Assembly: GCA_947627455.1 (NCBI GenBank)
Contig: CANQWC010000013.1
Span: forward strand, 1 to 62,302
Source: an uncultured Clostridia bacterium
GTDB taxonomy: Bacteria > Bacillota > Clostridia > Oscillospirales > Ruminococcaceae
Reading direction: 5' to 3'
Length of the DNA: 62,302 nt
Numbering within the stretch: position 1 is the stretch's first letter; the number at the start of each line of letters is the position of its first letter. The position numbers and the translations under genes were made by a program. Positions 9,852 to 60,140 of the stretch are shown in pieces. Under the pieces are notes generated by a model. The model had not been told where the DNA came from, ran no database searches, and saw only the letters and a list, made by a program, of their open reading frames with translations.

Positions 9852-10202
9852 GGGGGCGTAAAGGTTTCGACGGGGATCTTGACGACAAATAAGCGAGTAG
9901 AGACTGTGCCGTATCTCTTAAAAATGGCGCAAAACTAAAATTAAACGACAATAACCGTTTAGAATTAGCGGCTGCTTAATGCCGCTCGTCCACCCCGAGA
10001 GCACCACGGCTCGGGCTTGGGCGTCGATCAGTGGTGAACGTCTTTTCGCGAATCCCTGAGCGAGAAGATGATCTAAGGGATACCGAGCTGAGAAGTCTGC
10101 TTACCGACGGCTCAGCAAGGGAAACTAAAAGATAAGCTACACTCGTAGAAAGTTTTTTTGATGGGTTTTCGGACACGGGTTCGATTCCCGTCGCCTCCAC
10201 CA
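9852..10202 (+). ncRNA. ssrA: tmRNA (SsrA)
   Basis: Rescues stalled ribosomes with SmpB and tags the nascent chain for proteolysis. The 5' end GGGGGCG pairs with CGCCTCC at the 3' end to form the acceptor stem (one G-T pair), and CCA is encoded at 10200-10202. A T-arm-like GGGTTCGATTCCCG precedes it. The tag frame starts at GCA (9929-9931) and reads AKLKLNDNNRLELAAA to TAA at 9977-9979. Pseudoknot-like arms fill the rest. Its protein partner smpB is at 40951. Confidence 0.97.
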
Positions 10203-50763: not shown

Positions 50764-51180
50764 TTACAGCCTCTTCGTCATGCTCACATGCGGATAGTCC
50801 TGCTCGAAATAGCGCTCGCCCGTGGGCTCGAAGCCGCAGCGGGCATAAAAGCCCGATTTGTCCTCCTGAGCGCCGACGGTCATCGCGCTGCCGCCGAGCG
50901 ACCTCACCTCGTCAAATGCCCGCTCCATGAGAATTCTGCCGAGGCCCTCGCCCCTGCGGATTTTTTTGACCGCAACTCTGCCGACATGGTACGAGCCGCC
51001 GCCCTCGGGATAAAATCTCAGTGTCGCGACCGGCTCATCGCCGTCAAACATCACGATATGTGTCGCGCAGGCGTCGAACTCGTCAAACTCATCGACAAAG
51101 CCCTGCTCGTCGACGAATACTTCCTGACGAATCGCCGCCGATTCACTCGGCACGCCGTTTTTGAATACTTTGAAGGTCAT
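50764..51180 (-). CDS. GNAT-family N-acetyltransferase
   Basis: 138 residues. IRQEVFVDEQGFVDEFDEFDACATHIV is the ElaA/YjcF-type start, VGRVAVKKIRRGEGLGRILME the acetyl-CoA site, and FYARCGFEPTGERYFEQDYPHVSM the C-terminal end. Substrate unknown. Its ATG overlaps the stop of the preceding gene (ATGA). Confidence 0.92.
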   Translation of the reverse strand: MTFKVFKNGVPSESAAIRQEVFVDEQGFVDEFDEFDACATHIVMFDGDEPVATLRFYPEGGGSYHVGRVAVKKIRRGEGLGRILMERAFDEVRSLGGSAMTVGAQEDKSGFYARCGFEPTGERYFEQDYPHVSMTKRL

Positions 51181-52213: not shown

Positions 52214-54349
52214 TTAGTCACCCTTACCCCTTTTCCGAGGGCAGCCAACATACCCCCCTATCTCACACCCCCTCCTTTCGCACACAAGCGTTCTCATTCT
52301 CCCCACCGCTTGCAAAACCTCTTCCCGTCTCGGCAGGTCGATGAAGCGGCTCATGTCCGCAAAATTTCCCGAGTAAACGCAGTCCAGCCCCTCGGCTTCG
52401 ATTTTTCTGTAAATCTCGTCGACCTCCTGCTCGATATTCAGCTCCTTATCTGGGTTCGAGAACGAATCCTGCGCGTTTTTCGCCATGATCGCCCGAAGAA
52501 TGAACCCGATGCCGTGAAGCTGTCGCGGCGAAACAACGTTGTGAAGCCCCCGCAAATCCAGCTCCTCCGCGCCTATAATCATCACCCCGAGATCGAACAC
52601 CCTGAGCACCTCTTTGCCGAACCCGTTGGGGTGCGAGTCAAACCCTCCGCAGCGGTAAATTTTTCCTTGCGACCAGTCGGCCGCAGGGATTTTTTCTTTT
52701 TTGGGAATATTTTCTGCCGGCTCTTTTGCATATTCCGTAACATCGACCGGCTGAAAATTTTCCATCATGTAAATTTTGTCAGCGACTTTCAGATACTCCC
52801 CGCTGCCGCCGATGACCAAAACCGTCGAAACGCCGCGCTCGGAAAGCTCGCGAACCCGCTCGGTAAAGTGAATCAGCGGCTCGTTTTTTATCAGCTTTCG
52901 CATTAGCGGGTCGCGGATCATGAAATTCGTCGCCGAGCGGTCCTCGTCTATCAAAAGCAGCCTCGCACCCCTGCTCACCGACTCCGCGATGTTCGCCGCT
53001 TGCGAGGTCGAGCCCGAGGCGCGTGACGTCGAGAAATCGCGGGGGTCTGAGCTAGGAATCGCGCTTAAAAACGGCGAAATATTGACATGGCTTATCGCGC
53101 GGCCGTCCTCGGCAGAGACCGAAACGGCGCTCGGGTCGGTAATGCAAAGCTCCCTGCCGTCGCCGAGGGCGTGGTCGTAAATTCCCGCCGCGACGGCCTC
53201 AACAAGCGTGGTTTTGCCCGAATACCCGCCGCCCGTGATGACCGTGACGCCGCGCTTTATCGCCATACCGCGCACTCCCGCGATCTCGACCTCGCCCTCT
53301 TTCGGCGAGATAAAAGGCACTGCGTCTTCCATCGGAAGGTCGGTGTCGTTTTTTCGCGGCAGAACCGAGCCGTTCGCGATGAACGCGCAATACTCCGAGT
53401 TTTTGAGGTATTCGCGAATCGCACGCTGCTTATCCGCTAAATCAATGACCTTTAGCAGCGCCATTCTGTCAAAATTACGGATATACCTGTCCATCATTTT
53501 CGGCAGGTCGGACGTCAGCATTCGCACCGTCTTTTTCATTCGGTGATAGGGCAGCTGCACCTGTATCATCAGGCAAAGATACATAACCTCTTTAACCTCT
53601 ATGCCGACTCGGGGATAGACCGTGGTCCCCGAGCCGTAGTCATAATCCCGAGGCATTCTCGCCGAAAAATACGCCGAATTTCTGAGCAAAATCTCGCCGC
53701 TCGGCTCGCAGAAATAATACCGGCCGTTCTCCTCGACAGGCCGCGAGCGGTTGAAGAGTTCGCTGTTCAGCTCGTCCATATACGGCTTCAGCGCCCGCAG
53801 GCAGAAGTCGGCGACCGCGATATTTTCTGCGCCGCAGCATATCCCGAGCGCCTCCGAAGGTATCCCGACGGTCACGGTCGGGCAGCTTAATTTCAGGCGC
53901 CCTGTTTGGGTGATATGATAAAACACGCCCTCGCGCCAGTAAATCGGGTCGGCGACGAGCTCGGGCGGAAAGCTGCCGTCGGTTCTCACCACCCTGCAGT
54001 CGCCGTCGTAAATGCCATCGAATTTTTCGGTGTTTTCTCTCATGCCGAGCAAAATATTTTTTAAACGTTTCAAATTATCAACCTCATTTCGTAAATCATA
54101 ATAAATCCCGAGCTTTTCCGCGGGTATGCCCATAACCACGTTGGCGAGCATAGGCTGCTCGGGGCAGCTCTCGGTGATCTGCAAAAAACAGCCGTCATCG
54201 AGCCAATAAGTCGGGTCATATTCAGTCTCGTCCTTATCGGTGGGATTTGCGGGCGTGCGCCGCGGGATTACATACTTGCCGTCGAACACCGCCTGTAAAT
54301 TCTCCGATTTTTCGGACAGCAAATCAAGAATTTGCAGAAGTCTTACCAT
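52214..54349 (-). CDS. ABC-class P-loop ATPase (PF09818-like) with duplicated N-terminus
   Basis: 711 residues from the ATG at 54349, seven bases after GGAGG. The core from about 245 matches the 'predicted ATPase of the ABC class': IQVQLPYHRM, CAFIANGSVLPR, Walker A GGGYSGKTTL (373-382), signature ASGSTSQAANIAE and Walker B LLLIDEDRSATNFMIRD. There are no membrane helices. The first ~200 residues hold two similar ~85-residue units (DPTYWLDDGCFLQIT/MGIPAEKLGI and DPIYWREGVFYHIT/VGIPSEALGI), not the usual start of this family. Function unknown. Expression appears set by a leader peptide and attenuator upstream. Confidence 0.87.
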   Translation of the reverse strand: MVRLLQILDLLSEKSENLQAVFDGKYVIPRRTPANPTDKDETEYDPTYWLDDGCFLQITESCPEQPMLANVVMGIPAEKLGIYYDLRNEVDNLKRLKNILLGMRENTEKFDGIYDGDCRVVRTDGSFPPELVADPIYWREGVFYHITQTGRLKLSCPTVTVGIPSEALGICCGAENIAVADFCLRALKPYMDELNSELFNRSRPVEENGRYYFCEPSGEILLRNSAYFSARMPRDYDYGSGTTVYPRVGIEVKEVMYLCLMIQVQLPYHRMKKTVRMLTSDLPKMMDRYIRNFDRMALLKVIDLADKQRAIREYLKNSEYCAFIANGSVLPRKNDTDLPMEDAVPFISPKEGEVEIAGVRGMAIKRGVTVITGGGYSGKTTLVEAVAAGIYDHALGDGRELCITDPSAVSVSAEDGRAISHVNISPFLSAIPSSDPRDFSTSRASGSTSQAANIAESVSRGARLLLIDEDRSATNFMIRDPLMRKLIKNEPLIHFTERVRELSERGVSTVLVIGGSGEYLKVADKIYMMENFQPVDVTEYAKEPAENIPKKEKIPAADWSQGKIYRCGGFDSHPNGFGKEVLRVFDLGVMIIGAEELDLRGLHNVVSPRQLHGIGFILRAIMAKNAQDSFSNPDKELNIEQEVDEIYRKIEAEGLDCVYSGNFADMSRFIDLPRREEVLQAVGRMRTLVCERRGCEIGGYVGCPRKRGKGD

Positions 54350-54445
54350 GCGCAAACCTCCTTAAAATTATTTTTGTGCATAAAAATAACCTCACTTTCT
54401 TTGAAATCATGATCCGACGCAGAAATTGGGGCCTGAAAAATATGC

Positions 54446-54469
54446 AAAAAACCGCGCAAGAAGCGCGGT
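54446..54469 (-). terminator. Attenuator-type terminator upstream of the ABC-class ATPase
   Basis: On the minus strand ACCGCGC, loop TTCTT, GCGCGGT and TTTTT. It lies between the leader peptide and the ATPase gene, about 95 bases before its ATG, so transcription must read through it. CAGACTGC repeats and a GCGCTTTTT/AAAAAGTGC stem just upstream could form alternative pairings. Confidence 0.8.
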
Positions 54470-54582
54470 CAGTCGTTTTTGAAAATAAAAAAACAGACTG
54501 CAAAGCACTTTTTCAAAAAGCGCAGGCAGACTGCTGTCGCAGGCAATTTGTACAAACTTAGCAGAGCTTTATCGGTAAATCC

Positions 54583-54642
54583 TCACAACAAATAAACCCG
54601 ACGTGACGGCAGGCGCATGCGTATTAAATTTAATTTTTTCAT
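54583..54642 (-). CDS. 19-residue leader peptide
   Basis: MKKLNLIRMRLPSRRVYLL, with a perfect GGAGG seven bases before the ATG, starting about 36 bases after the predicted transcription start. Arg8-Met9-Arg10 is an Arg-X-Arg pattern like the +X+ motifs at which macrolides and ketolides stall ribosomes in erm-type leaders. It is followed by about 110 bases with alternative stems and then an intrinsic terminator. This is the layout of ribosome-mediated attenuation. The peptide itself is inferred. Confidence 0.72.
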   Translation of the reverse strand: MKKLNLIRMRLPSRRVYLL

Positions 54643-54684
54643 ACCGTCACCTCCAAGGCAAATTTGCAAACGGGTCATGGGGAG

Positions 54685-54713
54685 ATTATAACATATGGCG
54701 GGGTGGGTGTCAA
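54685..54713 (-). promoter_or_regulatory. Sigma-A promoter of the leader/ABC-class ATPase unit
   Basis: Minus strand TTGACA (54713-54708), a 17-base spacer and TATAAT (54690-54685), a perfect consensus. The predicted start is near 54678, giving a leader of about 330 bases. Confidence 0.88.
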
Positions 54714-54719
54714 GGGCTT

Positions 54720-54820
54720 TAAGAAGACAGATGGCAGAGGGCAGATTGTCAGAATTTCAAGGTGTCGACTGCGACGGGTTTAAAGATGGTGATAATGTGT
54801 GCGGAGTGGACGCCCCCTCC
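54720..54820 (+). repeat. Family A intergenic repeat, copy 6 (diverged)
   Basis: Short repeats changed to GACAGATGGCAGAGGGCAGA, then ATTTCAAGGTGTCGACTGCG and ATAATGTGTGCGGAGTGGAC. The first hairpin is missing. It separates two divergent promoters. Confidence 0.75.
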
Positions 54821-54832
54821 CCCTCATTTCCC

Positions 54833-54861
54833 TTGATTTCCCCGCTCGGATATGCTACAAT
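54833..54861 (+). promoter_or_regulatory. Promoter of the LytTR regulator/kinase genes
   Basis: TTGATT (54833-54838), a 17-base spacer and TACAAT (54856-54861). Confidence 0.75.
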
Positions 54862-54888
54862 CATTTTATCACCCCCAAGGAGTTCGCC

Positions 54889-55584
54889 ATGCTCAACTTT
54901 ACACTTTGCGATGACAGCGCTGCTGAGCGCGAATACATAAAAGCCCTTGTCTTTGAGTGGTCAAAGCGCTCGGGGGCTGAAATCTCCGTGCGTGAGTGCC
55001 CATCGGCAGAGGCGCTCTTGTTTGAATACGAGGACAACCCGCCCGACATACTTCTTCTTGATATCGAGATGTCGGGAATGAGCGGCGTCGAGCTTGCGAA
55101 AAGGCTTCGCCTCGAGAACAAGCTTATGCAAATAATCTTCATAACCGCCTATTCCGATTATATCGCCGAGGGCTATGATGTCGCGGCGCTTCACTATCTT
55201 TTAAAGCCTGTCGACAGCGCGAAGCTTTTCTCTGTTCTTGACCGCGCGGTCGAAAAAATTGCCGACGACGGCCGAAAGCTTCTTCTTGAGACACCCGATG
55301 AGACCGTTCTTCTTCCGATTTATGAGATCAGCCACATCGAGGTGATAAAAAACTATGTCACCGTTCACGCCTCACGCAACTATACCCTGAAAAAGCCGCT
55401 CAAAGAGATAGAGGCCGAGCTTGATGAACGGTTTATCCGCGTGGGTAGGTCGTATATCGTGAACCTCGGCTTCATCACAAGGGTGACAAAAACCGAGGTA
55501 TATCTCAAAGGCGGCGAGTCGGTCCCGCTGCCGCGCGGGGGCTATGAAAAGGTCAACCGCGCGATAATATCAATGAAAAAGTAG
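54889..55584 (+). CDS. LytTR-family response regulator
   Basis: 231 residues from the ATG at 54889, which has AAGGAG before it. The receiver domain (1-120) has CDDS, the phosphorylated Asp58 in ILLLDIEMSGMSG, and LLKPVD. The LytTR DNA-binding domain (about 130-230) has IYEISHIEVIKNYVTVH, FIRVGRSYIVNLGFI and VPLPRGGYEKV. LytTR proteins bind direct repeats about 21 bases apart; such repeats occur at 56297 before the ABC genes. Nine bases before the kinase gene. Confidence 0.94.
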   Translation: MLNFTLCDDSAAEREYIKALVFEWSKRSGAEISVRECPSAEALLFEYEDNPPDILLLDIEMSGMSGVELAKRLRLENKLMQIIFITAYSDYIAEGYDVAALHYLLKPVDSAKLFSVLDRAVEKIADDGRKLLLETPDETVLLPIYEISHIEVIKNYVTVHASRNYTLKKPLKEIEAELDERFIRVGRSYIVNLGFITRVTKTEVYLKGGESVPLPRGGYEKVNRAIISMKK

Positions 55585-55592
55585 GTGAACCC

Positions 55593-56255
55593 ATGCTCGG
55601 AAAAAAGGCAAACAGGCGTATTGAGGCCTATCAGCGCGAGCTTTTGAAGACGCACTTTTTAGAGGTCGACAACATGTACCGAAAGATGCGCGGCTGGCGC
55701 CACGACTATCGCAACCACATTCAGGTTTTGAAATCCTACGCCGACAGGGGCGACCTTGAGGCGATATCAAAGTATTTAGACGAGCTTGAGGCCGACCTCT
55801 ACACCGTCGACACGGTGATAAAAACGGGCGACCCGATGACCGACGCGATTCTGAACTCAAAAATAGCCCTCGCGAACGACAGAAATATTAAGGTCGAGGC
55901 CGACGCCCACATTCCCGTGCTGCTCTCGGTCTCGGCGGTCGATTTGTGCACCGTCATCGGCAACCTCTTCGACAACGCCATCGAGGCCTGCTCCGAGCTG
56001 CCCGAGGAAAAGCGCGTTATCCGCGTCTATATGGACGTCAAGGGTACTCAGCTTTATATTTCTTTCCTCAACTTCACCTCGGGCGGAAAGCTTCAAAAGG
56101 TCGGCAACATTTTTAAGAGCACCAAGGGCGGCGAGCACGGCTTCGGCCTCGGGCGGATAGACGACGTTGTAAAGCGCCTCGGCGGCTATATCTCCCGCAA
56201 CTCAGAGGAGGGCGCGTTCACGACAGAGGTTTTATTACCCCTTGCGAAAGAATAA
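55593..56255 (+). CDS. Soluble GHKL-type histidine kinase (partner of the LytTR regulator)
   Basis: 220 residues, with no membrane helix. WRHDYRNHIQVLKSYA carries the phosphorylated His37, TVIGNLFDNAIEAC is the N box and HGFGLGRIDDVVKRLGG the G box. This is the AgrC/ComD-like catalytic core without the N-terminal membrane sensor those kinases normally have. The signal must come from the cytoplasm or from a partner protein. Confidence 0.93.
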   Translation: MLGKKANRRIEAYQRELLKTHFLEVDNMYRKMRGWRHDYRNHIQVLKSYADRGDLEAISKYLDELEADLYTVDTVIKTGDPMTDAILNSKIALANDRNIKVEADAHIPVLLSVSAVDLCTVIGNLFDNAIEACSELPEEKRVIRVYMDVKGTQLYISFLNFTSGGKLQKVGNIFKSTKGGEHGFGLGRIDDVVKRLGGYISRNSEEGAFTTEVLLPLAKE

Positions 56256-56295
56256 TTCTGACAATCTGAGCCTCTGATTTCTGACCTCTGATTGC
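56256..56295 (-). repeat. Partial family A short-repeat segment
   Basis: Minus strand CAATCAGAGGTCAGAAATCA, then GAGGCTCAGATTGTCAGAAT. It resembles the segment at 29902. Confidence 0.55.
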
Positions 56296-56296
56296 G

Positions 56297-56325
56297 TTTC
56301 GTCCACTACAGCTTACAATTCGTCC
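56297..56325 (+). promoter_or_regulatory. Putative LytTR-binding direct repeat
   Basis: TTTCGTCC (56297-56304) and ATTCGTCC (56318-56325), 21 bases apart, two helical turns, as expected for a LytTR dimer. A weak -10 (TATGCT) lies downstream at about 56354, with no good -35, as is usual for activated promoters. Confidence 0.6.
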
Positions 56326-56390
56326 CCGAAATATCACATTCGGGGATTTTTGTGATATGCTTAGCTCACGACAAAAAGGAGCTGATAAAA

Positions 56391-58238
56391 ATGTCGGACA
56401 AGAAAAAAGAAAAGCCGCAGTACGGCATGGCGAAGTGTCTTAGATTCTTCTTCGGACGAGCGCTTAAATACCGCCCCGAAACACTGCTGCTTCTGTTTTT
56501 CCAGATACTCTTCAATTCAACAAGCGCGGTCTTCGGCTTTTATGTTTCGCCGATGATCCTCTCCTGCCTTGAGCGCCGTAGCAGATTCGGCGAGCTCATT
56601 CTTACAATGCTGATCATTATCGGCGGGTGCTTTATTTCCGAGGCCGCCGTGCGATATATCGGCAACGGCTCGGGCTCAGACGGGATCAAGTGCGCCTATC
56701 AGGTCGAGCTTCGCAGCAAGATCATGGAAGAGATTACAGACAGAACCGCCAATACTTCCTACTGCCACTGCCTTGACAACAAGTATTTAAGGGCTACCGA
56801 GCGCGCATTGGGAGCCTGCGGCAGCAACAGCGCGGCCGCCGAGGGAACATGGCATACCCTGCAGAATCTCGGGGTAAATCTTGTGATGTTTGTATTCTTC
56901 ACCGCGATGCTCACCTATATTCACCCGCTTGTATTTGCGGTGACTGTCGTTCTGAGCGTCGCCGACTTCGCGGTCTCGGCCTATGTCTACAAATACAACT
57001 ATCGCCACCGCGAGGAGCTTTCACACATCGATCGGCAGGCGTGGTATTTGCAGGGCCTGCCGAGTCAGCTTTCCGTCGCAAAGGATATCCGCCTCTTCGG
57101 GCTTTCAAGCTGGATAAACCGCCTCACCGACAAGGCATTCGCCGCCAAAGAGGCATACGCCAAAAAAGAGCACGCCTTCTATCTCATCGGCACGTTTTCA
57201 AGCATGATACTTGAATTTCTCAGAAGCGGCGCCGCCGTGTTCATTCTTCTGAACATGTGCATTAAAAACGGCATGAGCGCCGCAGAATTCATGCTCTACT
57301 TCTCGGCGGTGAACTCGTTCAACGGCCAATTCAGCGGGATTTTAAACAACTTCCTCGACCTCAAAAACAAGTGCCTTGATTTTTCCTGCATGCTCGAGCT
57401 TCTCAACTACCCCGAGCCCTATAATCTCGGCGAGGGCGAGCCTATTCCCGAGGACTACACCTATGAATTTACCCTCGAGAACGTTAGCTATACTTACCCC
57501 GAGTCTGACAAGAAGATCATCGACAACCTCAGCCTGAAAATAAAGCGGGGCGAAAAGGTCGCGATTGTCGGCCTCAACGGCGCGGGCAAGACCACGCTTA
57601 TAAAGCTGATTACGGGGCTTCTTGACCCCGACGAGGGCAGGATACTCTTAAACGGGGTCGACATCAGAAAATTCAACCGCAGCGAGTATTATAAGCTGTT
57701 CTCGGCGGTCTTCCAGCACTTCAACCTCTTCGATCTCACCGTCGCCGAGACGGTCGCGCAGTCTGCCGATGATATAGATGAAGCCCGCGTCAGCGACTGC
57801 CTCGAAAAGGCGGGGCTTACAAAGGCTGTTTCAGAGCTTCCCGACGGCATCAACACCCACCTCGGCAGAGAGGTATATCTTGACGGCGTTGTTCTCTCGG
57901 GCGGCCAGACCCAAAGGCTGATGCTTGCGCGAGCGCTCTATAAAAACGGCTCGGTGCTTGTTCTTGACGAGCCGACGGCGGCCCTCGACCCCTTGGCCGA
58001 GCGGGACATGTATCAGAAGTATAACTCGATGGCCGACGGCAAGACCTCGCTGTTTATATCTCACCGCCTTGCGTCGACGGGCTTCTGCGACAGGGTGTTA
58101 TACCTCAAAGACGGCAAAATCGCCGAAGAGGGCACTCACGAGAGCCTGCTCGCGCTCGGGAAGGAATATGCCCACCTCTTCAAGGTTCAGGCGAGATACT
58201 ATCAGGAAGACTATGTGAAAGGACAGGAGGCGTTTTAA
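56391..58238 (+). CDS. ABC exporter half-transporter 1
   Basis: 615 residues from the ATG at 56391, with AAAGGAG upstream. Membrane domain with about six helices (residues 20-340), then an ATPase: GLNGAGKTTLIKL (Walker A), VVLSGGQTQRLMLARAL, SVLVLDEPTAALDPLAE and ISHRLAS. It is immediately followed by a second half-transporter (TAA then ATG), so they should form a heterodimer. Likely substrates for such LytTR-linked pairs are peptides or drugs. No precursor-peptide gene was found here. Confidence 0.92.
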   Translation: MSDKKKEKPQYGMAKCLRFFFGRALKYRPETLLLLFFQILFNSTSAVFGFYVSPMILSCLERRSRFGELILTMLIIIGGCFISEAAVRYIGNGSGSDGIKCAYQVELRSKIMEEITDRTANTSYCHCLDNKYLRATERALGACGSNSAAAEGTWHTLQNLGVNLVMFVFFTAMLTYIHPLVFAVTVVLSVADFAVSAYVYKYNYRHREELSHIDRQAWYLQGLPSQLSVAKDIRLFGLSSWINRLTDKAFAAKEAYAKKEHAFYLIGTFSSMILEFLRSGAAVFILLNMCIKNGMSAAEFMLYFSAVNSFNGQFSGILNNFLDLKNKCLDFSCMLELLNYPEPYNLGEGEPIPEDYTYEFTLENVSYTYPESDKKIIDNLSLKIKRGEKVAIVGLNGAGKTTLIKLITGLLDPDEGRILLNGVDIRKFNRSEYYKLFSAVFQHFNLFDLTVAETVAQSADDIDEARVSDCLEKAGLTKAVSELPDGINTHLGREVYLDGVVLSGGQTQRLMLARALYKNGSVLVLDEPTAALDPLAERDMYQKYNSMADGKTSLFISHRLASTGFCDRVLYLKDGKIAEEGTHESLLALGKEYAHLFKVQARYYQEDYVKGQEAF

Positions 58239-60140
58239 ATGACCAAAAAGACCGAAAAAATGTCGTGGCGCGAGGCATACAGGCTCAACGCCCGCGCGAT
58301 AAAGCTTCTGAATTCCAAAAACAGGCTGATGTTCCCTTACATTATCGTGAAGCAGCTTCTTTCGACTGCGGCTTCGCTGACCTCGCTTTTTGTGATAGCT
58401 CGGCTTATCGGCGAGCTTTCGGGCGAACGTCGCTTGGAAAAGCTGATTTTCTGGGCGATATTCGGCATAGTCTCGACCGCTGTCTTTGCGGTGATAAACG
58501 GCGTGATGTATCATGCCTACGAGGTAAAAGCGACAAACTTCTGGAACAACATGAACCGAATCGAGGACGAAAAGTTCATGTCGATGGATTACAGCGATGT
58601 CGAAGACCAGCGCGTCCGCGACCTTAAAGACCAGATCTGGCAGAACCGAAACTGGTCGGGCTGGGGGTTCTCAAGAATACAGTGGTCCTTTCAGGAGCTT
58701 GTATCGCACGTTTTCAACCTCATCGGTTCGCTCGCGATGTCGATAGGCCTGCTTATCCATAAAGTCCCCGAGGGCAGCCCGTTCGCGATTCTGAATAACC
58801 CGTTTGTCATGATAGTTTTTATTCTGTCGGCGGTCCTCTGCTCGATGATAACTCCGAAGCTTGACGCGATAGACACCGAGCATTATGCGAGCATGAGCAA
58901 AAGCGCGACCTTCGGAAACAGGCTGTTTTCGCACTTCGGCTATCTCGACATGAGCCCCGAGAAAATGATCGATTACAGGCTATATCGCCAGAATGACGGC
59001 TTTGTGAAAAAATATCGGTGGAAGTACAACCTTTGGTATGTAGGCGGAGAAAAGGCAAAATATGACAAGGGCTTGGGCGGCCTTATCTCAATAGGTCGGG
59101 CGTTCGGCTCAAAACTTCTGATGTTTGTAGTTTACTTCTTTGTCTGCTTAAAGGCGCTCGGCGGGGCGTTCGGCCTCGGCGAAGTCACCCAATACGTCGG
59201 CGCGATGACGACCCTCGTGAACAGCGCCACGGGCACGTTTTCCGCGATGAACATACTCCGCGTCAACGCGGCATTCCTGAAGGACATCTTTGAGCTCTTG
59301 GATATTCCCAACAAGATGTATCAGGGCAGCCTCACGACCGAAAAGCGCCTCGACAGAAAATACAACGTCGAGTTCAAAGACGTCAGCTTCAAATACCCAA
59401 ACTCCGAGCGATGGACGCTCCGCCATGTTTCGGTGAAGTTTGAAGTCGGCACAAAGCTTGCGGTCGTCGGCGAGAACGGCTCAGGAAAATCGACGTTTAT
59501 AAAGCTTCTCTGCCGCCTCTACGACCCTCAGGAGGGCGAGATACTCCTCAACGGCGTGAACATCAAAAAATACCGCTACGACGAGTACATAGCGATATTC
59601 TCGGTGGTGTTTCAGGACTTCTGGCTGATGTCCCACAAGCTCGGCCAGAATGTCGCGGGCTCCTGCGATGTCGACGGACCCCGCGCGATAAAATGCCTCG
59701 AAGACGCGGGCTTCGGCGACAGGCTCAAAGAGCTCCCCGACGGCTTGGAGACATGGCTCGGCAAAGATTTTGACGAGGACGGCATAATAATTTCGGGCGG
59801 CGAGTCCCAGAAAATCGCGATCGCCAGAGCCCTCTACAAAGACGCCCCGTTTATCGTTTTAGACGAGCCCACCGCAAGCCTCGACCCCCTCGCCGAGGCT
59901 GAGATCTACAAAAACTTCGATGAAATCGTCGGCGACCGCACCGCGATATACATAAGCCACCGCCTTTCAAGCTGCCGCTTCTGCAAAGAAATTCTCGTTT
60001 TTGAGGGCGGCCGAATCATCGAGCAGGGCACGCACGACGGGCTCATCGACGCGGACGGAAGGTATAAAGAGCTCTGGGACGCGCAGGCGAGGTATTACGA
60101 GAAAATGAGGCAGTATGAGGAGGACAAGAAGTATTTGTGA
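58239..60140 (+). CDS. ABC exporter half-transporter 2
   Basis: 633 residues. Membrane domain (about residues 25-345) followed by an ATPase: GENGSGKSTFIKLL, IISGGESQKIAIARALYKDAPFIVLDEPTASLDPLAE and YISHRLSS. All catalytic motifs look intact in both halves, unlike exporters with one degenerate site. The start ATG follows the stop of half-transporter 1 with no gap. Its signature reads SGGES where half 1 has SGGQT. Confidence 0.92.
   Translation: MTKKTEKMSWREAYRLNARAIKLLNSKNRLMFPYIIVKQLLSTAASLTSLFVIARLIGELSGERRLEKLIFWAIFGIVSTAVFAVINGVMYHAYEVKATNFWNNMNRIEDEKFMSMDYSDVEDQRVRDLKDQIWQNRNWSGWGFSRIQWSFQELVSHVFNLIGSLAMSIGLLIHKVPEGSPFAILNNPFVMIVFILSAVLCSMITPKLDAIDTEHYASMSKSATFGNRLFSHFGYLDMSPEKMIDYRLYRQNDGFVKKYRWKYNLWYVGGEKAKYDKGLGGLISIGRAFGSKLLMFVVYFFVCLKALGGAFGLGEVTQYVGAMTTLVNSATGTFSAMNILRVNAAFLKDIFELLDIPNKMYQGSLTTEKRLDRKYNVEFKDVSFKYPNSERWTLRHVSVKFEVGTKLAVVGENGSGKSTFIKLLCRLYDPQEGEILLNGVNIKKYRYDEYIAIFSVVFQDFWLMSHKLGQNVAGSCDVDGPRAIKCLEDAGFGDRLKELPDGLETWLGKDFDEDGIIISGGESQKIAIARALYKDAPFIVLDEPTASLDPLAEAEIYKNFDEIVGDRTAIYISHRLSSCRFCKEILVFEGGRIIEQGTHDGLIDADGRYKELWDAQARYYEKMRQYEEDKKYL

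Follow-up and report, generated by a model that had tools for sequence, protein, structure and literature searches.

The leaders that most closely resemble the one described here are those of vmlR from Bacillus subtilis and cplR from Clostridioides difficile. As outlined in the available part of the vmlR report (PMC9226507), that leader carries a uORF within an anti-antiterminator hairpin, an antiterminator, an intrinsic terminator and a further hairpin on the main SD, and our locus has counterparts of these, the anti-antiterminator being a candidate and the antiterminator a proposed one. The cplR leader, according to the accessible portion of its description (PMC10201436), likewise has a uORF and anti-SD elements, and combines transcription attenuation with translation attenuation. 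In the toiL-topAI system, the text available to us (PMC12121999) describes one uORF that responds to several drug classes, with tetracycline and retapamulin acting at the start codon; start-codon stalling by tetracycline was shown for toiL, and the same text gives start codons as the likely site of action of the drugs to which the vmlR, cplR and vga(A) leaders respond.

The comparisons reported below make it rather probable, in our judgement, that transcription of a PF09818 ABC-class ATPase gene from an uncultured Clostridia bacterium is attenuated by a leader that senses ribosomes in the manner of the vmlR and cplR leaders.

Sequences and analyses

The window, by which we mean the whole stretch of DNA analysed, comprises 62,302 nt (GCA_947627455.1, contig CANQWC010000013.1, positions 1 to 62,302). 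A PF09818 match was present in 10 of the 31 genomes of the window's genus, and an orthologue at E 1e-100 was held by 49 of the 295 genomes in the family of the L012 genome; upstream DNA was taken for 47 of these 49 and displayed for 32. Peptides and reading frames were surveyed in 53 leaders, 39 of which matched an RNA-motif pattern (CGGATG and variants) that is loose, the match in L027 being doubtful. Fold tests covered 40 leaders with a recognised SD, uORF and terminator T1, 8 of them from the window's genus. Fourteen others were left out as near-duplicates or because T1 could not be placed automatically (L012, L016, L017, L043, L051, L062, L068, L069, L074, L078, L079, L080, L084 and L086), and 5 for want of an SD call (L047, L055, L071, L076 and L087); L013, L015 and L023 likewise stood outside the 40. 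Antiterminator (AT) probability was computed on nascent RNA, with the 3' arm of T1 still untranscribed and the ribosome placed by codon. Search model R1 was built from 24 PF09818 leaders and model R2 from four leaders of the window's genus. Alignment A4 has 76 related rows (73 distinct) and was fitted to helix P1 and T1; alignment A1 is a 24-row MAFFT alignment that made no use of structure.

Organization of the leader

The following features were located directly in the window.

54685..54713, minus strand: sigma-70-type promoter TTGACA-17-TATAAT, 12 of 12 consensus matches
54650..54654, minus strand: SD GGAGG of uORF1, extended form GGAGGTGA
54644..54650, minus strand: 5' arm of P1, GTGACGG (SD side), with family covariation
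54583..54642, minus strand: uORF1, 19 codons, MKKLNLIRMRLPSRRVYLL and stop; position kept among relatives, peptide not
54603..54609, minus strand: 3' arm of P1, CCGTCAC, within uORF1 (anti-SD side; proposed anti-antiterminator), with family covariation
54595..54622, minus strand: proposed antiterminator strand within uORF1; duplex of -22.9 kcal with the 5' side of T1
54520..54544, minus strand: 5' side of T1, partner of the antiterminator strand
54487..54534, minus strand: intrinsic terminator T1, hairpin GCAGTCTGCCTGCGCTTTTTGAAAAAGTGCTTTGCAGTCTG (-18.3 kcal) and 7 T (U7 tail)
54446..54470, minus strand: intrinsic terminator T2, GACCGCGCTTCTTGCGCGGTTTTTT
54390..54399, minus strand: SD of uORF2 (GAAAGTGAGG)
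54343..54381, minus strand: uORF2, MHKNNFKEVCAW and stop, with its own SD, the stop overlapping the ATPase start
54357..54361, minus strand: ATPase SD GGAGG
52214..54349, minus strand: PF09818 ABC-class ATPase with MRB1590 C-terminal domain, 711 aa from ATG

The original prediction for this DNA had placed a perfect promoter, a GGAGG, a 19-codon frame, a terminator and an ATPase gene with its own GGAGG on the minus strand, and all of them were found there. The "competing stems" that it described between frame and terminator also exist, but they form the upstream intrinsic terminator T1 with its U7 tail; uORF2, overlapping the ATPase start, was absent from its account. Thus a uORF with an SD precedes an intrinsic terminator in the window, and a hairpin surrounds the uORF start region (P1, the candidate anti-antiterminator), as the vmlR/cplR type requires. 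The anti-SD of P1 lies only ~40 nt downstream of the SD. Compared with dinucleotide shuffles the leader folds more stably (z -2.2), 2 of 200 shuffles reaching its stability or better. Taken singly, terminator-like sites are as frequent by chance (5 found versus 5.3 expected in shuffles), and the perfect TTGACA-17-TATAAT sequence occurs 4 times in the window, the leader promoter being one copy.

In the window, the 5' side of T2 offers a possible partner for the 3' arm of T1 (-14.3 kcal), and such pairing may be a way of disabling T2. For the SD of uORF2 there is a possible upstream sequestering partner, weak in the window (-7.3 kcal) and stronger in L025-L028 (-10.9 to -15.8 kcal). A uORF2-like ORF was present in all 9 genus loci read, with overlap of the ATPase start in 8, and from this overlap of stop and start we infer translational coupling between uORF2 and the ATPase gene. 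In most of 19 aligned leaders (L041-L073), the segment between T2 and the ATPase gene contains a conserved TTTTTCGTGGAAAGC..ATATAAGT..AACGGAAAAT arrangement, whose ends could pair.

An Rfam scan of the whole window gave no match to the leader at gathering score (best sub-threshold E 0.086). The sole gathering-score match in the window is a tmRNA gene at 9852-10202 on the plus strand.

Recurrence of the leader upstream of ATPase orthologues

A near-identical leader is common to the window and to L021, L022 and L024, and the same layout with a different leader sequence was found in L025, L026, L027 and L028, whose proteins are 60-64% identical. R1 detected the G250 leader (E 6.8e-5). Throughout these comparisons, orthologues in differing gene neighbourhoods are again preceded by a uORF, P1 and a terminator; loss of the frame or terminator upstream of orthologues had been named beforehand as what would overturn the reading, and such loss was not the outcome. 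Cross-reading by hand placed an R1 match (E 0.01) next to the ATPase gene in 33 of the 49 genomes with an orthologue, that in G447 being partial at a contig break. Leader scans recognised none in L013, L015, L023, L074, L076, L086 and L087; the upstream DNA of L023 is unrelated, with no such leader over the 279 nt available.

The window leader itself matches R1 weakly (15.9 bits) and is not in register with R2, and neither model found it in genome-wide searches; its membership in the family rests on orthology and shared parts. A DNA search for further copies in the window's own genome returned only the leader itself, and R1 and R2 gave weak matches there (E 0.048 and 0.012). The R2 search of the genus returned its four building leaders and weak matches, of which L166 and L175 were inspected and rejected, neither being leader-like.

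All 53 surveyed leaders have an SD and a start codon, and their peptides vary. The uORFs are mostly 14-30 codons long; that of L054 stops after four. Among the 39 leaders with a pattern match, the common RNA motif lies in frame 0, 1 or 2 in 19, 14 and 6 cases, respectively, and on these sequences it is the RNA that is conserved, not the peptide. A control for open frames over 14 codons (open in 48 of 53 in frame, 1 in +1 and 34 in +2) carries no weight, because the +1 frame is biased (ATGA gives a stop). Arg-Met-Arg (R-M-R-L-P-S) survives in three of the 8 window-genus leaders, namely those of the window, L021 and L024. A 1-nt frameshift in L022 removes it and leaves the frame open with another peptide, and the peptides of the farther orthologues L025-L028 are unrelated and lack R-x-R. 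Relaxed to [RK]-x-[RK], the motif is found in 11 of the 53 peptides.

Covariation and cognate pairing of the helices

In A4, all 7 pairs of P1 have changed on both sides (35 cells; 73 distinct rows), in a test that leans towards P1 because A4 was fitted to P1 and T1. The structure comprising P1 and the antiterminator beats 500 of 500 shuffles of A4 on every measure, and slid versions of it pair in 25-42% of cells versus 89.6% for the real structure. In A1, where P1 varies little, its pairs are 94.6% paired, 2 of them have changed on both sides, and 43 of 500 shuffles score as high. The antiterminator, which lies outside the A4 model, shows 4 of 7 pairs changed on both sides (6 cells); its region is gapped in 18-19 of the 73 rows, partly because longer uORFs shift the motif.

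Pairing was also compared between cognate and swapped partners. Duplexes of the ORF with the terminator arm averaged -14.2 cognate versus -12.2 swapped in 40 related leaders (0 of 20000 permutations as good), and -9.7 versus -8.5 in 21 representatives (131 of 50000 as good); for P1, 0 of 50000 permutations were as good in the representatives. Shuffled ORFs match the antiterminator at a rate of a third or more in 8 of the 21 representatives, including L025-L028, where it is equalled by 0.35-0.68 of shuffled ORFs.

Folding with ribosomes in place

The original prediction had suggested folding the leader with and without a stalled ribosome. Over the 40 leaders, mean AT probability on nascent RNA was 0.72 with a ribosome at the start codon versus 0.31 for free RNA, and 0.22, 0.22 and 0.19 with the ribosome 4, 8 and 12 codons farther on. 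The control with a shuffled terminator arm gave 0.31, which the start-codon state exceeded in 35 of 40 leaders; the start-codon value was above that of free RNA in 30 and below it in 6. For the window, AT probability was 0.64 at the start codon, 0.23 in free RNA, and 0.50 with Met9 of R-M-R in the P site; motif-codon values were 0.48 in L021 and 0.07 in L024, and some last codons of L021 and L024 give an AT probability equal to that at the start codon. Of the early codons, then, these folds favour the start codon as the place where a stall would free the antiterminator most.

P1 forms in free RNA with a mean probability of 0.77. When the full terminator is present, T1 averages 0.94 in free RNA and 0.84 with a start-codon ribosome, dropping below 0.3 in the latter state only in L046, L049, L054 and L077 of the 40. 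In the window, T1 stays at 0.96-0.97 in every ribosome state once complete. Because the complete T1 prevails in most states and leaders, a switch of this kind would have to be under kinetic control, which polymerase pausing, for instance, might provide.

Other genes behind the leader

In the family of the L012 genome, R1 at E 0.01 matched 57 of 295 genomes, and a hand tally gave 57 matches at E 1e-4 or better. Of these 57, 34 precede PF09818 genes (23 being the leaders from which R1 was built) and 2 precede PF09818 remnants, the remnant at L130, recognised by eye, being followed by an ABC-F gene. Five precede ABC exporters (L138, L140, L142, L149 and L150, the gene in L149 lying 286 nt on), one an Lsa-family ABC-F gene, one a SAM methyltransferase gene, three an unnamed protein family of membrane-type appearance and one another such family; 6 are at contig edges and 4 have no class assigned. 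The ABC-F protein at L146 passes the NCBIfam Lsa cut-off (762 vs 750 bits). Behind the leaders of L136, L139 and L145 (and L134) lie proteins of ~230-280 aa that are membrane-type by eye, and neither Pfam nor NCBIfam gave a match for those of L136 and L134. At the order level, R1 at E 0.001 matched 32 of 394 genomes, a set that overlaps in part with the one above; two of the matches, L206 and L207, look like plain terminators. Inspection covered all but two matches of the order list; of its 29 loci L179-L207, PF09818 follows the leader in 21, and the protein behind the leader in L204 resembles a GNAT acetyltransferase by eye.

We rejected general use of the leader by Lsa-like ABC-F genes: R1 matched only 2 of 24 such loci, some cut at contig ends, and one of the 2 (L130/L211) sits behind the apparent PF09818 remnant. 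The other Lsa-like loci have, by eye, very short uORFs of their own. A search for plasmid copies found none. As far as a model built on PF09818 leaders can tell, the leader appears to belong mainly to PF09818, other genes having acquired it through its spread or by capture.

The ATPase and its neighbourhood

As predicted originally, the downstream gene encodes a PF09818-type ATPase (318.9 bits, cut-off 23.2); its MRB1590 C-terminal domain scores 45.3 bits (cut-off 27). The Pfam scan found no ABC_tran (PF00005) domain, which sets the protein apart from ARE ABC-F factors, and no 23S rRNA methyltransferase in the gene downstream of the leader, which sets the locus apart from the erm class. Residues 271-636 align to PDB 5d6a (E 9.6e-71) and 278-618 to 4yix (E 1.4e-59), and the ATPase core is held in common with MRB1590 and the "Predicted ATPase of the ABC class" (PDB 4yix, 4yj1, 5d6a). 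MRB1590 is a trypanosome mitochondrial RNA-editing factor in the available part of its report (PMC4538832), whereas the window protein is known from its sequence and differs in having a repeated N-terminal module. By eye, this ~90-residue module (YWxxGxFxxIT ... GIPxExLGI) occurs twice in residues 1-180; orthologues of the L012/L028 type have a single copy. PF09818 matches were found in bacterial and archaeal control genomes, and trypanosome MRB1590 also belongs to the family. Among the titles and abstract openings retrieved for PF09818/ABC_ATPase, MRB1590 and COG3044, none names a bacterial role.

When 11 window genes were compared with six genus contigs that carry the ATPase gene, only the ATPase had a close homologue, the others being absent or <32% identical. 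Since the neighbours in the window are not kept beside orthologues, leader and ATPase gene appear to travel as a unit. No conserved operon was found in this comparison; near the orthologues there are only distant kinase, regulator or ABC homologues (25-31% identity). The divergent group adjoining the ATPase gene (54799-60140, plus strand) encodes a LytTR response regulator and a GHKL sensor kinase, followed by a tandem pair of ABC exporters, one of which, the second, was judged by its sequence; it has no close homologues beside the ATPase orthologues of the six contigs. A GNAT gene lies downstream of the ATPase gene at 50764-51180, and in L151, L155 and L156 a divergent PF09818 gene behind the leader is followed by a GNAT acetyltransferase gene.

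Discussion

The order of events that we propose is as follows. The strong SD would drive translation initiation at uORF1. In free RNA, the SD would pair with the anti-SD inside uORF1 (P1), and T1 and T2 would stop transcription; during normal translation, the moving ribosome would cover the antiterminator strand, with the same outcome. A ribosome held on the start or first codons would block P1 and leave free the antiterminator strand, which lies ~20 nt past the start codon in the window; this strand could then capture the 5' arm of T1, and RNA polymerase would read into the ATPase gene. No particular nascent peptide would be required, and the second, coupled uORF may add a translational layer. 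Induction would be expected from pleuromutilins, lincosamides, streptogramin A and tetracycline, as drugs that arrest ribosomes on start codons, and from stresses with that effect. The comparisons establish the anatomy of the leader, its recurrence, the covariation of P1 and the occurrence of the leader before other genes, and from them we infer the order of events, the inducers and a part for the ATPase in translation stress.

The original prediction saw an erm-like arrest motif in uORF1; in a switch of that kind, macrolides or ketolides would stall ribosomes at Arg-Met-Arg. R-M-R-L-P-S is indeed present in the window, L021 and L024, a ribosome with the motif Met in its P site leaves appreciable AT probability in the window and L021 (0.50 and 0.48), and the looser motif recurs in 11 of 53 peptides. 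However, just two of the four nearest relatives of the window share R-M-R, L022 having lost it by frameshift, and it is missing from L025-L028; the motif codon of L024 gives an AT probability of just 0.07; in the three motif-bearing leaders the start codon gives more (0.64, 0.65 and 0.68) than the motif codon; and the frame in which the common RNA motif is read differs among leaders, all three being in use. We regard such arrest as distinctly unlikely. What stands of the original prediction is a uORF/terminator attenuator of translation-sensing type kept with the ATPase gene, and what finds no support is the arrest peptide as its mechanism. A ligand- or protein-binding riboswitch with an incidental short ORF seems to us just as improbable: the stretch around CGGATGTCATAT is conserved beyond its pairs in L012-type leaders, but it differs in other clades, where P1 and the position persist, and an SD and start codon accompany the leader in 53 of 53 cases, with no gathering-score Rfam match (best sub-threshold E 0.086) and no evident common metabolite for the genes behind it.

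Slightly less improbable, though still unlikely, is a sensor of free ribosomes, in which timely binding of a 30S subunit to the SD is what keeps P1 from closing, and the leader would read initiation capacity (starvation, assembly defects) rather than drugs. P1 does form in free RNA (mean 0.77), with the window anti-SD ~40 nt past the SD, and vmlR is also induced by ribosome assembly defects, as stated in the available text of PMC9226507. Yet AT probability in free RNA is low (0.31), and the gene would therefore stay off when ribosomes are lacking, unless P1 and AT form a pseudoknot, a structure beyond the scope of these folds. Attenuation specific for an amino acid, as in a trp-type leader, would also account for a uORF with alternative stems, but no single-codon run is shared by eye across the 53 peptides and the downstream gene is not biosynthetic, and we give this explanation almost no credence. 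A point that counts against the peptide-independent scheme we prefer is the finding, in the accessible portion of PMC10201436, that the sequence of the vmlR uORF itself matters for induction.

The AT response to a start-codon ribosome, taken with the occurrence of the leader before Lsa ABC-F, exporter and methyltransferase genes, lends support to the predicted induction by ribosome inhibitors; the proposal that the ATPase is induced by these or by translation stress is thereby strengthened. The layout of the leader, resembling that of switches through which stalled ribosomes activate resistance genes, suggests that this ATPase of gut bacteria belongs to a response to blocked protein synthesis. 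We further offer, tentatively and with more doubt than confidence, the possibility that in these Clostridia the PF09818 ATPases make up a new class of factors for translation stress or ribosome protection. They would clamp RNA and, in common with an Lsa-type ABC-F protein and with efflux pumps of relatives, would be induced by a single leader that acts independently of its peptide and signals that ribosomes are held at start codons. A recurrent leader, found also ahead of an ABC-F gene of resistance type, offers an initial clue to the conditions in which the PF09818 protein is needed. In one bacterial order it appears ahead of unrelated genes as a module that can be moved, so it should be usable to find candidate translation-stress genes.

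That a start-codon ribosome would favour the antiterminator agrees with what is reported for vmlR and toiL. For the leaders before exporters in L138, L140, L142, L149 and L150 we propose ribosome-mediated attenuation, as the available text (PMC4191407) gives it for the ABC exporter of bmrB-bmrCD. There are also differences from these systems within the portions of the reports at hand. toiL-topAI of E. coli uses Rho-dependent termination (PMC12121999), whereas the terminator here is intrinsic. The cplR uORF is MR[I/M] and controls an ABC-F gene (PMC10201436), and the PF09818 leader differs in both respects. The vmlR uORF has 3 codons (MIN), whereas the uORFs described here mostly have 14-30 and run through the anti-SD; moreover, there are often two terminators here, the second uORF overlaps, and the gene is not an ABC-F gene (PMC9226507 for vmlR). 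What is new here is the gene, the long uORF with an internal anti-SD read in different frames, and the use of the leader across gene classes.
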